From IMG/VR virus record IMGVR_UViG_3300044648_000101, positions 1 through 49,271 of that record: a stretch of 49,271 bases of DNA. One strand, written 5' to 3'. The DNA is from a virus. The translations under genes were made by a program, and so were the position numbers. A model generated the notes under the pieces. It made no database searches. It was given only the letters and a program-made list of their open reading frames with translations, and was not told the DNA's origin. Of this stretch, positions 36,673 to 40,308 are shown one piece after another. The number at the start of each line of letters is the position of its first letter. Positions within the stretch are counted from its first letter, which is position 1.

Positions 36673-36704
36673 TTTGTTTATATGAATTACCTTTTTTACT
36701 TTTG
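36673..36704 (+). promoter_or_regulatory. Promoter of the transposase
   Basis: TTTG (36673-36676), 20-bp spacer, TACTTTTG (36697-36704): an exact host-type TAnnTTTG promoter, different from the TATnTTTAC form of phage promoters. ATG follows at 36723. Confidence 0.85.
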
Positions 36705-36722
36705 AGTATTAACAGGAACAAA

Positions 36723-37685
36723 ATGGATTTCCAATTCAAAAGTTTAGCTCAATTACTTAGGTATTTCAACAATGAGAAAGTTTGCTTTGACTTCTTAGAG
36801 CAACAAATATGGGGTGGCACTCCTGCATGTCCCCATTGCGGTTCTATTCACGTTTATACAAGGAAAAACAGAAGCAAAAAACTTGCCGAACTTGGTATAA
36901 ACGAATACAAATGCGCTGAGAAGGGTTGCAGCAAAAACTTCACAGTTAAGGTTGGTACTATATTCGAAAGCTCAAAGCTTGATCTGCAAATCTGGTTTGC
37001 TGCTATCTGGCTTTGCACTACAACTAGTAAGGGTATCTCATCTGCTAACCTTGCTAAGCAACTTGGCATTACTCAGAAAACAGCATGGTTCGTTTTATCT
37101 CGCATTCGTGAAATGTTTGCACAGACCGCACCGCATATGCTCACAGGCGAAGTTGAGATTGATGAAACTTACGTAGGTGGCAAAGAAGCGAACAAACATA
37201 AATCTAAGCGTATGCCCAAAGGCGCTACGGGTGCAAAGGGTAAAAGCCCTATGGTAGGTCTATTGCAACGTAACGGCAATATGGTATTGCGTGTTATTGA
37301 TGCTGATAAAGCCAATGGCGAAACGATTAAACCAATCGTAAGGCAATTCGTTTGCCCATCAGCAACAATCTACACAGACGGTTTTGGTGCCTATAAAGAC
37401 CTGAATAAAGAGTTTGCAGGACACGGTATTGTGAAGCACGACCAAGGCGAATATGTTAACGGTATCGTTCACACGAATACAATTGAGGGCTTTTGGAGCA
37501 TTATGAAGCGTGGTATTATTGGCGTGTATCACTTTACCAGCCATAAGCATTTGCAGCGTTACTGCAACGAGTATTCATTCAGGTATAACAACCGTGACCT
37601 GGCTTTAAATGCGAAGTTTGGTAAGGCTGTAACCGAGAGCAGAAACGCTAGGATTACTTATAAGCAGCTAATTGAGAAGAAATAA
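36723..37685 (+). CDS. IS1595/ISXO2-like transposase
   Basis: 320 residues from ATG 36723 (the upstream TTG lies in the promoter). N-terminal zinc ribbon CPHC...C...C, HTH-like middle (SSANLAKQLGITQKTAWFVLSRIREM), then the DDE-type catalytic domain: EIDETYVGGKE, TIYTDGFGAY and HTNTIEGFWSIMKRG, closing with YHFTSHKHLQRYCNEYSFRYNNR. This is the ISXO2 group. It appears full length. Ends of an IS are not certain: an inverted TTACCTTTT/AAAAGGTAA pair (36687-36695, 37687-37695) flanks the gene but overlaps promoter and terminator. Confidence 0.9.
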   Translation: MDFQFKSLAQLLRYFNNEKVCFDFLEQQIWGGTPACPHCGSIHVYTRKNRSKKLAELGINEYKCAEKGCSKNFTVKVGTIFESSKLDLQIWFAAIWLCTTTSKGISSANLAKQLGITQKTAWFVLSRIREMFAQTAPHMLTGEVEIDETYVGGKEANKHKSKRMPKGATGAKGKSPMVGLLQRNGNMVLRVIDADKANGETIKPIVRQFVCPSATIYTDGFGAYKDLNKEFAGHGIVKHDQGEYVNGIVHTNTIEGFWSIMKRGIIGVYHFTSHKHLQRYCNEYSFRYNNRDLALNAKFGKAVTESRNARITYKQLIEKK

Positions 37686-37686
37686 G

Positions 37687-37713
37687 AAAAGGTAAGCGGC
37701 CTGCTTACCTTTT
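37687..37713. terminator. Bidirectional terminator
   Basis: Perfect 11-bp stem AAAAGGTAAGC (37687-37697)/GCTTACCTTTT (37703-37713) with loop GGCCT. It lies between the + strand transposase and the - strand gene pair, with A/T tracts on both arms, so it can stop transcripts from both sides. Confidence 0.85.
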
Positions 37714-37974
37714 CCCATATTTATCTTTAAAGTGGTTGAACCGCTTTTCTTCGTGCTGTACACAGTCGGGATACGGAATTGCTAACGTTGATGATGCGTG
37801 CATTACTTGATAATCTGCGACTTCCCTGTCATCAATCGGCAGGTCAACATATACATACCGATTATTCGTAGGGTTGACGAATTTTATCTGTCTTGCCGTT
37901 ACATTTACTCCCTCAATGGCTTCTTGTTTGCAACCGTGGACTTTCAACCAATCCACAAAGGTTTCTCTTGTCAT
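37705..37974 (-). CDS. Partner of HicB-like protein, candidate toxin
   Basis: 89 residues: TRETFVDWLKVHGCKQEAIEGVN, ARQIKFVNPTNNRYVYVDLPID, C-terminal HEEKRFNHFKDKYGKR. Its start overlaps the HicB-like stop by 4 bases. Size, basic tail and position suggest a toxin partner, but the HicA signature (G-S-H in a short dsRBD-like fold) is not seen. The stop lies within the terminator hairpin. Confidence 0.6.
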   Translation of the reverse strand: MTRETFVDWLKVHGCKQEAIEGVNVTARQIKFVNPTNNRYVYVDLPIDDREVADYQVMHASSTLAIPYPDCVQHEEKRFNHFKDKYGKR

Positions 37975-38222
37975 GCAATAACCATGTTTACAGGCTTGGT
38001 AATATAATCTACATGATCCATGTAGCTCTTAATCACCTCTTCTTTCCTATCCTGTAACATGACTTGAAACAAGTTATACAAATTCCCTTGAGCTTCCTCA
38101 ACAGAATCACCACAAGCTATTGCTTCAGGAAACTCTGCGAAAAAAGCCGAAAATTGCCCCGTCCTTTCATCAGGAACAATAATCCCGGTTAGTTCCAGTT
38201 TGAAGTTTAGTAGAGCGTTCAT
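37971..38222 (-). CDS. HicB-like antitoxin domain protein
   Basis: 83 residues. ELTGIIVPDERTGQFSAFFAEFPEAIACGDSVEEAQGNLYNLFQ is the HicB partial RNase H-like fold (UPF0150). No C-terminal ribbon-helix-helix or HTH DNA-binding domain is present, unlike most HicB antitoxins; the tail ends KPVNMVIA. It would neutralise the downstream partner by binding. Confidence 0.75.
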   Translation of the reverse strand: MNALLNFKLELTGIIVPDERTGQFSAFFAEFPEAIACGDSVEEAQGNLYNLFQVMLQDRKEEVIKSYMDHVDYITKPVNMVIA

Positions 38223-38352: not shown

Positions 38353-38531
38353 AGCAAAACAACCCCCGCCCATCACTTACGTCTAATGGGAAACCGCAAA
38401 TGAGGCGGCTGATGAGCGAGGTTCAAAGCACATACTTTGATGCTCTTATTGTTTTGTTGCTGCGCTAACAGCTATTTACAAATCATTCTTAAACCGCTCG
38501 GGCTGCAACCTTTGAGCGGTTTAAATTTTTT
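38353..38531 (+). ncRNA. Structured RNA candidate, about 175 nt
   Basis: Starts just after a TATCTTTAC promoter and ends at an intrinsic terminator. A 10-bp closing stem (38353-38362 with 38449-38458; CAAAACAA/TTGTTTTG core) encloses CCGCC (38366-38370)/GGCGG (38404-38408) and a hairpin GAGC...TCAAAG-CACATA-CTTTGA..GCTC (38414-38445). The terminator is AAACCGCTC (38491-38499)/GAGCGGTTT (38514-38522) plus T6. No known RNA family is recognised. No ORF here. Could be an antisense or regulatory RNA for the HicB-like pair or TnpA operon. Confidence 0.6.
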
Positions 38532-38601
38532 CGGCATAGTAGTCGCGATCTTTTTCCTTTTTGTTGTCGTATTCCGGCTTTAAGAAGCCTGAATTAAAAA
38601 T

Positions 38602-38622
38602 ACTACCGGCTACAAGCCGGTA
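38602..38622 (-). terminator. Hairpin after the TnpA operon
   Basis: CTACCGGC TACAA GCCGGTAG, perfect 8-bp stem. On the - strand it is followed by TATTTTTAAT, so it can terminate the TnpA operon. It could also be the subterminal hairpin of an IS200-like element, which TnpA recognises as single strand. Confidence 0.75.
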
Positions 38623-38636
38623 GATTTGGTTACGGC

Positions 38637-38855
38637 TCAAGCCGTCTTAAGTTCATTAAAGTGATTGATAGCTTCGCGAACACAACCAGAAAAAATGCGG
38701 TTGTCTGCCATGCTTGCCCGATACGTCCCTATGGCGGCATAGGTGTGTACCTCATCCTCATCATCGGGCCGCTCAAATACATCAACCAATGTATCGGGGT
38801 GAAGCAGTGTGAAATATCGCATTAGGTCTGCTAAGTCTTCAATTTTCGTTATCAT
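38637..38855 (-). CDS. Hypothetical gene coupled to TnpA
   Basis: 72 residues: MITKIEDLADLMRYFTLLHP, acidic centre (FERPDDEDEVHTYAAIG), SGCVREAINHFNELKTA. Its ATG overlaps the TnpA stop by 4 bases, so it is translated with it. No relatives of IS200 accessory genes are known to me. Family unknown. Confidence 0.7.
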   Translation of the reverse strand: MITKIEDLADLMRYFTLLHPDTLVDVFERPDDEDEVHTYAAIGTYRASMADNRIFSGCVREAINHFNELKTA

Positions 38856-39286
38856 ACTTTAGAGATTTTAAAGTCATCGTCTTGTACCGTGACGTCCTGA
38901 TTGTCGATATACTGCATTATCATTTCATCAGTGATATTACCGCTACTACAGGCGAAGTAGCCACGCGCCCACAGGTGTTGACCCCAGAACTGCTTTTGCA
39001 GCTCTCTAAAGGCAAACAGGAGCTTGCGCGATGATTTACCCTTGATGAATTGCATTAGCTGGCTAATGCTGATATTGGGAGGAACGCTAACGAACAGGTG
39101 TATGTGATCTTGCGATACATGCCCTTTGATTATCTCAACGTCATTTGCCTTACATATCTCCCTTATTAAATCGCGCGTCTTTTCAGCTATTACGCCTTGC
39201 AAAACCTTCTTACGATACTTGGTTATCCATACAAGGTGATACTTCAGGTCATATACGCTGTGAGCGGTCTTTCTATAGTTTTGCAT
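38852..39286 (-). CDS. tnpA: IS200/IS605-family Y1 transposase TnpA
   Basis: 144 residues, normal length. HUH motif QDHIHLFVSVPP, catalytic Tyr in MQYIDNQD near the C-terminus, and RGYFACSSGNITDEMI. These enzymes move single-stranded DNA by recognising end hairpins. Here the gene overlaps ORFs on both sides in one operon, not the usual stand-alone arrangement. No TnpB is present. Start MQNYRKTAHSVYDLKYHLVW is typical, and all catalytic residues seem intact. Confidence 0.95.
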   Translation of the reverse strand: MQNYRKTAHSVYDLKYHLVWITKYRKKVLQGVIAEKTRDLIREICKANDVEIIKGHVSQDHIHLFVSVPPNISISQLMQFIKGKSSRKLLFAFRELQKQFWGQHLWARGYFACSSGNITDEMIMQYIDNQDVTVQDDDFKISKV

Positions 39287-39470
39287 CTTTCAGCATTTTT
39301 TTAATTGCAGTACGAATTGCTTTGTTTTCTTCCTTGGTAAACTCAGTAGGATTGCCCCTGCCGTTTTTGCCTCGTATTTTGTGTTTATAGCTCTTTATCT
39401 CTGGCAGATAGTCACGGAAGAAGGCATCTGCTTTAATGTAATTCCATATCATAAGCGGGAATTTAAACAT
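39273..39470 (-). CDS. 65-residue basic protein in TnpA operon
   Basis: MFKFPLMIWNYIKADAFFRD, then KSYKHKIRGKNGRGNPTEFTKEENKAIRTAIKKMLKDAKL: a basic, helical C-terminal half, maybe nucleic-acid binding. Overlaps TnpA by 14 bases and the upstream stop in TAATG. Family unknown. Confidence 0.7.
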   Translation of the reverse strand: MFKFPLMIWNYIKADAFFRDYLPEIKSYKHKIRGKNGRGNPTEFTKEENKAIRTAIKKMLKDAKL

Positions 39471-39880
39471 TAAGCAGCAACCTTTACACCGTACCTCTTA
39501 ATGGTATACTCATTCGCCGCGCTAATCTTTGGCAAAACCATAGGAGAAATGCCGTTCTTTTGCGCTATCATTTCGCGCCACGTCTCAACCTGTTCGCACC
39601 GCGCAGCATAGTCCCTTATCATCTGCAAGCATTCGCCTTTAGTGACACAGAATATATCCCAACGCTCAACGCCCGTAGCATCATACAGCTTTTCAGCAGC
39701 AGCGTAATTCACTATGAAGTTATCTTCTACACACAGGAAGTATCTGTACTTCTTATCCGCAAGCATATTGTATGCTTCGCTGACGATCTCGCAAATGTCA
39801 AACTTTACGCCGTTGACAAATTCGGTAACCACTGATGGGGCAACGGTAGCAGAAGGGTAACTCATAGCCATAACTTTCAT
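39470..39880 (-). CDS. First gene of TnpA operon, hypothetical
   Basis: 136 residues from the ATG at 39880; an upstream GTG overlaps the promoter and is rejected. MKVMAMSYPSATVAPSVVTEFVNGVKFD, then a mixed alpha/beta body with YFLCVEDNF and CEQVETWREMIAQKNGISPMVLPKISAANEYTIKRYG. The C-terminal part could contain an HTH, which would make it the natural autorepressor, but this is not clear. Family unknown. Confidence 0.72.
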   Translation of the reverse strand: MKVMAMSYPSATVAPSVVTEFVNGVKFDICEIVSEAYNMLADKKYRYFLCVEDNFIVNYAAAEKLYDATGVERWDIFCVTKGECLQMIRDYAARCEQVETWREMIAQKNGISPMVLPKISAANEYTIKRYGVKVAA

Positions 39881-39891
39881 CGTTTGTTGCA

Positions 39892-39923
39892 CAAAGATAG
39901 TGTAACTTTATCGTTACACCAAA
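39892..39923 (-). promoter_or_regulatory. Promoter of TnpA operon with palindromic spacer
   Basis: On the - strand: TTTG (39923-39920), 20-bp spacer, TATCTTTG (39899-39892): an exact consensus. The spacer is wholly GTGTAACGATAAAGTTACAC (39900-39919), a perfect 7-bp inverted repeat with 6-bp loop, and so a strong operator candidate. Its half-site GTGTAAC equals the core of the repeats at 17561-17812. Confidence 0.85.
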
Positions 39924-39992
39924 CACTATAGAAATATATTATCAAAAATGGCTTCCCTATAGATTTATGTTATACATCTGTAACTGAAGTCT

Positions 39993-40006
39993 TCGCCTAA
40001 AGGCGA
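39993..40006. repeat. Small hairpin, possible IS200-type end
   Basis: TCGCC TAAA GGCGA. No T-run follows on the - strand, so it is not an obvious terminator of the gene at 40012. A short hairpin upstream of tnpA and another downstream (38602) is the layout of IS200/IS605 ends. If real, the element would be about 1.4 kb and carry three extra genes. Confidence 0.35.
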
Positions 40007-40011
40007 GGGTT

Positions 40012-40308
40012 TTAGACCCCGAAAGGGACAATAACATGCTCATCTTCGTTCAATTCTTCTGATTGCACTTCTTTTGCGCCTAATTCGAAGTCAATGTCAG
40101 GCCCGTTGATCGCGGGTATCTTTACAACCTCTTTTTTGGGTTTGTCGTTGTTTTCTGCTATCAGGTTATTCATTGAATCCCAAAGGCCAAACCCAAACCC
40201 TTTAAGGATATTCATTGGGGCTTTCTCGACGATGCTTAAGAATTCAAATTCATTTGCTGGCCTGTACTCAAAATCTAACTGATACGTCCTTTCAAACTGG
40301 GGTGTCAT
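40012..40308 (-). CDS. Hypothetical acidic protein
   Basis: 98 residues: MTPQFERTYQLDFEYRPANE, central ILKGFGFGLWDSMNNLIAENN, acidic C-terminus (KEVQSEELNEDEHVIVPFGV). Separate from the TnpA operon by the region with the palindromic promoter. Family unknown. Confidence 0.65.
   Translation of the reverse strand: MTPQFERTYQLDFEYRPANEFEFLSIVEKAPMNILKGFGFGLWDSMNNLIAENNDKPKKEVVKIPAINGPDIDFELGAKEVQSEELNEDEHVIVPFGV

Follow-up and report, generated by a model that had tools for sequence, protein, structure and literature searches.

The IS200 group of the IS200/IS605 family of insertion sequences (IS) constitutes TnpA subclass 1.1, and its members encode a Y1 HUH transposase with DH[VI]H and YxxNQ motifs, carry subterminal hairpins at both ends and have no long terminal inverted repeats (PMC6006769). 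Class 2 of the same scheme contains the repetitive extragenic palindrome (REP)-associated or domesticated Y1 proteins, which have the motif Y..xNP and are encoded by a single-copy gene with REP sequences replacing the IS ends (PMC6006769). Here we analysed a tnpA gene that overlaps other small genes in a 49-kb viral record (IMG/VR IMGVR_UViG_3300044648_000101, positions 1 to 49,271), the whole 49,271 nucleotides of which are called the window and which also encodes a recognisable DNA helicase, a primase, a portal-like protein and a tape-measure-like protein. The element around this tnpA resembles the IS200 group in all the features named above; unlike that group, it has three non-tnpB genes, of which two precede tnpA and one follows it, in a single overlapping operon. 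It is also unlike class 2, as its tyrosine motif is the class 1 form YIDNQ, the motif Y..xNP is not present, and the IS ends are. We take "only tnpA and/or tnpB between the ends", which does not describe the window element, as a usual and not a defining feature of IS200/IS605.

Phage morons are accessory genes with their own promoter that are sited between phage genes. Transporter IS (tIS), for example the passenger-carrying IS1595 elements, hold passenger genes between their ends and use DDE transposases. The window element is likewise an insertion sequence with passengers between its ends; unlike tIS, it is a single-strand Y1 element whose passengers overlap the transposase gene. We found no report of passenger or cargo genes in IS200 elements in the open-licence literature. 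Our analysis indicates that the locus is probably a transposon of the IS200 type in which a self-regulated phage accessory (moron) operon was captured at a microhomology, and that at least three such elements with different cargo exist. Its features are as follows, L024 being a 15.9-kb viral contig with a related element.

38595..40028, minus strand: complete IS200-type element including its cargo, 1,434 bp, with an uncertainty of 2-3 bases at the ends, in the order left end, orfA, orfB, tnpA, orfD, right end
39964..40034, minus strand: left end (LE), subterminal hairpin CTCGCCTTTAGGCGAAG, 85% identical in DNA to L024 4183-4257
39892..39923, minus strand: promoter with putative operator, TTTG-GTGTAAC-N6-GTTACAC-TATCTTTG, upstream of orfA
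39470-39880, minus strand: orfA, 136 residues from ATG (an alternative GTG start, 140 residues, is also open), first cargo gene in the variable position, an orphan
39273-39470, minus strand: orfB, 65 residues, DUF5053-like, second cargo gene and candidate autoregulator, with its stop inside tnpA
38852-39286, minus strand: tnpA, 144 residues, Y1 (HUH) transposase with intact catalytic residues
38637-38855, minus strand: orfD, 72-residue orphan, third cargo gene, between tnpA and the right end
38595..38655, minus strand: right end (RE), small hairpin ACGGCTTGAGCCGT and large hairpin CTACCGGCTTGTAGCCGGTAG, 82% identical in DNA to L024 5429-5495

The extent of the element rests on the homology of LE and RE to L024 and to plain IS200 relatives, and deleting it from the sequence rejoins the frame of an interrupted phage gene, orfE. 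The first-pass annotation had placed the element at 38602-40006; an element is indeed there, but the true one is slightly larger, at about 38595-40028. The hairpins that it had reported on both sides are real, the RE double hairpin reaching z -5.6 against shuffles; the LE hairpin is weak by folding energy (z -1.5), and its sequence is conserved in relatives. Just outside the LE, TTATTG at 40034-40029 is the probable target sequence, which likewise stands before the LE in many relatives. The LE lies upstream of orfA, roughly 700 bp from tnpA, and the RE overlaps orfD in its last codons only, encoding the terminal residues ELKTA. As the LE precedes orfA and the RE is past tnpA and orfD, the cargo is inside the element and flanks tnpA on both sides.

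For comparison of the ends, TnpA relatives at 53-72% identity were taken from bacterial genomes. At 18 bacterial loci, an LE block around CGGGG-AATGGGAGAAAA-CCCTCGCCTTTAGGCGAAGACTTTAGT was found a few tens of bases 5′ of the tnpA start, and a double hairpin followed the tnpA stop wherever the 3′ side was readable, these being ordinary IS200 elements of 0.6-0.7 kb. The LE is also near tnpA in the Cytophagales copy L046 and in clostridial-type and other viral copies (L038-L042, L044, L045 and L065). A normal 0.7-kb IS boundary within the operon, which had been raised as the contrary case, was rejected: there is no second LE between orfB and tnpA, and the LE that adjoins tnpA in the plain relatives is here upstream of orfA. 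Scans of viral contigs with the LE pattern returned, beyond the known cargo elements, only plain elements, left ends standing alone at the ends of contigs, and a single chance match (L068). The close TnpA subfamily was present in 1 of 395 genomes of a phylum-wide sample and 9 of 291 of an order-wide sample, and none of the readable copies from these samples carried cargo. A near-identical IS200 left end was also seen in metagenome-assembled genomes labelled Deltaproteobacteria, Brocadiaceae and Spirochaetia (L006, L007, L011-L013, L017 and L019), so this IS200 subgroup appears to span several phyla.

Three viral contigs, namely the window, L024 and L043, have two or three small genes between the LE and tnpA. 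The TnpA of L024 is 96% identical to that of the window, and its cargo consists of an orphan gene and an HTH_3 gene, joined by an ATGA overlap, behind a promoter-like site with the palindrome ATATCAT-AA-ATGATAT. Homology between the two elements stops about 20 bp past the LE hairpin and restarts exactly at the tnpA ATG. In L024 it is TnpA that has ELKTA as its last residues, and the right end encodes them; since this tail belongs to orfD in the window, orfD was inserted just inside the right end, in a second slot. The third element, in the 57-kb viral contig L043 of higher G+C, comprises an LE (1729-1780), three orphan genes and an RE, and its tnpA, which begins in TAATG like a downstream cistron, survives only as a fragment of about 28 codons that has an early stop. 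The cargo genes of the three elements showed no resemblance to each other, and every cargo is accompanied by a promoter-like site of its own, near which lies a palindrome. The same three partners that the first-pass annotation had linked to TnpA were thus not found beside it elsewhere, while two other cargo elements with different partners were, which points to exchangeable cargo and not to a fixed partnership. Separately, in L043 a GC-rich stretch upstream of the LE (1250-1700), which ends in a terminator-like hairpin, had suggested an RNase P RNA-like reading; this is unsupported, as no Rfam family matched.

The window TnpA matched Pfam Y1_Tnp (E=1e-43) over the whole domain, and its catalytic set is complete: the HUH histidines H61 and H63, Y126 and Q130. 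Compared with L024, 68 codon differences are synonymous and 6 change the amino acid (nonsynonymous divergence dN 0.045, synonymous divergence dS saturated); so few amino-acid changes over saturated dS indicate long divergence under purifying selection, unlike a relic. Such selection could be claimed for a domesticated transposase, one that the phage had recruited to function together with orfA, orfB and orfD, the ends being relics, and the overlap of the genes under one operator-bearing promoter would also fit. However, selection on TnpA would equally be predicted for a mobile element, the two IS200 ends have been kept and are conserved, the partners are wholly different in L024 and L043, and the orfB operon exists without tnpA, so that domestication, one of two alternatives first offered for this locus, is highly unlikely. 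The other, an IS200-like element with three cargo genes, is supported by ends that are kept, lie outside the cargo and are common to an element in an unrelated phage. Apart from the element, no gene shared by the window phage and the L024 phage was detectable, the L024 contig being only 15.9 kb long. As the ends and TnpA are common to otherwise unrelated phages, they have moved between them.

One might also suppose a one-off accident, in which a plain IS200 inserted, unrelated phage genes entered later and the product was immobile, the other two cases being independent accidents. The cargo is different in each case, the L043 tnpA is dead, and the same cargo element was not found at a second site, all of which would agree with this. 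But the cargo of the window and that of L024 occupy the same slot between the LE hairpin and the tnpA start with both ends intact, selection on TnpA has been strong, and each cargo comes with its promoter-like site and palindrome. We consider such a series of accidents improbable and retain the reading of a cargo-bearing IS200-type transposon.

The four minus-strand genes overlap in series, as first described, by TAATG at 39472-39468, by 14 bases (39273-39286) and by ATGA (38852-38855). A single regulated promoter for all four, as the first-pass annotation had it, is reasonable: a Bacteroidota-type promoter match, TTTG-N20-TATCTTTG, has as its spacer a perfect palindrome, GTGTAAC-N6-GTTACAC, of which the window holds one exact copy. 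The promoter pattern by itself is weak evidence, with 3 matches in the window versus 1.5 expected. With up to one mismatch allowed, the operator core was absent from 395 Bacteroidota genomes.

Relatives of orfB at 61-80% identity were identified in six viral contigs (L085-L090), with neither tnpA nor an IS200 left end nearby. In all six, orfB comes after a different small gene with a short overlap, and the site seen in the window, TTTG-GTGTAAC-N6-GTTACAC-TANNTTTG, precedes the operon in five (L085-L089; the L088 copy has one mismatch). No two of the first genes are related; they range from 66 to 242 residues, and the surroundings differ. The operons with the near-invariant 32-bp promoter-operator are:

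L085, 2131-2686
L086, 2214-2680
L087, 1735-2686
L088, 1996-2686
L089, 2271-2683

In L088 a second orfB homologue is present at 723-914, and in L085 a tRNA-Trp (CCA) gene (1973-2044) lies directly upstream of the orfB module. Judged from their sequences, the orfB operons look like moron-type modules, with their own promoter, a variable payload and a conserved last gene, and like morons they stand in varied phage contexts, for example directly before a tape-measure-like gene in L087; unlike morons, the window module is enclosed in a transposon by which it could be moved. The OrfB family comprises proteins of 59-65 residues with the invariant core KxKIRGxNxRxNP and is related to DUF5053 (Pfam). 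Its tight association with the operator makes OrfB the best candidate for the operator-binding protein. DUF5053 was found in none of 198 genomes, in a search that detected the control genome; an orfB profile had no match in 295 genomes, in a search without positive control, and orfB had none in phage and plasmid records.

The layout resembles that of acr-aca operons as described in PMC9410906 and PMC9765179, in which a small variable orphan is followed by a conserved small gene, the promoter contains a palindrome and the regulator family is tied to the operator. The L024 cargo repeats this arrangement, with a palindromic promoter, an orphan gene and a helix-turn-helix (HTH) gene in second position. 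Unlike those operons, the window module has a DUF5053-like OrfB without a detected HTH, and tnpA is on the same transcript. We do not claim membership of the acr-aca class, as the searches with OrfB revealed no HTH and the module has no known anti-CRISPR activity.

The same two genes might instead act as a toxin (orfA) and an antitoxin that is also the regulator (orfB), which together retain the element in the phage, a cargo function that would be compatible with a captured operon in a transposon. Two small genes that overlap and have an operator in their promoter would fit this, as would the HTH_3 gene in second position in L024 and a HicB-like gene with a small overlapping partner close to the element. 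However, the unrelated first genes of the orfB operons, with their wide range of lengths, are unlike a toxin family with one antitoxin, and PADLOC gave no convincing match for orfA or orfB; we regard this function as unlikely.

For orfA, no Pfam or PHROG family rose above noise, and no relatives were found in viral contigs, phage records, plasmids or the sampled Bacteroidota genomes; orfD had none in viral contigs or phage records. Apart from the HTH gene, no cargo gene was found in the 395 Bacteroidota genomes (a search with no positive control) or in plasmids. AlphaFold without alignment gave a moderate model of orfD (pLDDT 63.5) with a helix-strand-strand-helix arrangement, and the orfA model was unusable.

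The junction between orfB and tnpA suggests how the cargo may have been captured. The L085 orfB, at its 3′ end (ATGCAACACTGCCGTAA), and the plain tnpA of L046, at its 5′ end (ATGCAAAACTATAGA), have ATGCAA-ACT in common (9/10 bases), and the window junction falls at this near-identity, so that orfB stops inside tnpA. The moron operon may thus have been joined to the tnpA start at a microhomology, with the LE kept upstream. Such a join would explain the 14-base overlap, which need not reflect evolved translational coupling; coupling may have arisen from the overlap later.

The probable insertion site is a phage gene whose reading frame runs on past the element:

40029..40308, minus strand: 5′ part of orfE, interrupted by the element
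38522..38594, minus strand: 3′ part of orfE, SGFLKPEYDNKKEKDRDYYAEKI-stop, with a terminator-like hairpin after it

With the 1,434 bp removed, the rejoined frame encodes a protein of 117 aa and stops just before the terminator-like hairpin. As evidence of insertion into a gene this is no more than suggestive, since a join would occur by chance in one of three frames and orfE has no relatives that would show the uninterrupted form.

Several points weigh against a mobile element with a captured, self-regulated operon. No uninterrupted orfE or empty site was found among viral contigs and phage records, and the empty site is deduced solely from the reading frame. The same cargo with these ends was not found at different sites, so that co-movement of cargo and ends is something we infer. 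No DNA-binding fold was recognised in OrfB, for which Pfam gave only DUF5053, with no HTH, and no PDB relative was found. Finally, only three cargo elements are known, one of which (L043) has a broken tnpA.

Adjoining the element, at 37705-38222 on the minus strand, are two overlapping small genes, one HicB-like (PHROG 497, E=3e-5) and the other encoding an 89-aa partner in the place of HicA; they are likely a toxin-antitoxin pair in the same accessory stretch as the element. On the far side of this pair, a complete IS1595/ISXO2-type transposase gene occupies 36702-37685 on the plus strand. The region after the portal and head genes therefore holds two different insertion sequences within 4 kb.

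In the mechanism that we propose, TnpA would recognise the LE and RE hairpins on one DNA strand and cut and join single strands, and everything between the ends would move as one, that is, the captured operon plus one further gene, orfD. The captured operon would consist of its own promoter and operator, the variable orphan orfA and the conserved small orfB. OrfB is most likely a repressor that binds the operator and switches off its own operon, in the manner of Aca proteins acting on anti-CRISPR operons; with tnpA on the same transcript, this repression would also limit transposition. OrfA may have an accessory, possibly anti-defence, role. As a broader and tentative proposal, which we hold to be possible but not probable, Bacteroidota phages might harbour a class of IS200-type single-strand transposons which acquire self-regulated anti-defence (acr-aca-like) operons and carry them from one phage to another, unrelated one, the cargo repressor (OrfB or the HTH protein) controlling transposition as well.

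The more interesting point is that the passengers are exchangeable, and those of the window include a self-contained type of phage operon known elsewhere without a transposon. IS200/IS605 elements are held to be minimal, with tnpA and/or tnpB, and an IS200 with exchangeable phage operons would be new. In combination, the 32-bp operator-promoter and a DUF5053-like gene offer a new means of finding such modules, and each first gene is a candidate anti-defence or host-takeover gene. If the proposal is true, these elements would be a very small vehicle that spreads accessory genes via single-stranded DNA, and thus a concrete route for morons between unrelated phages.
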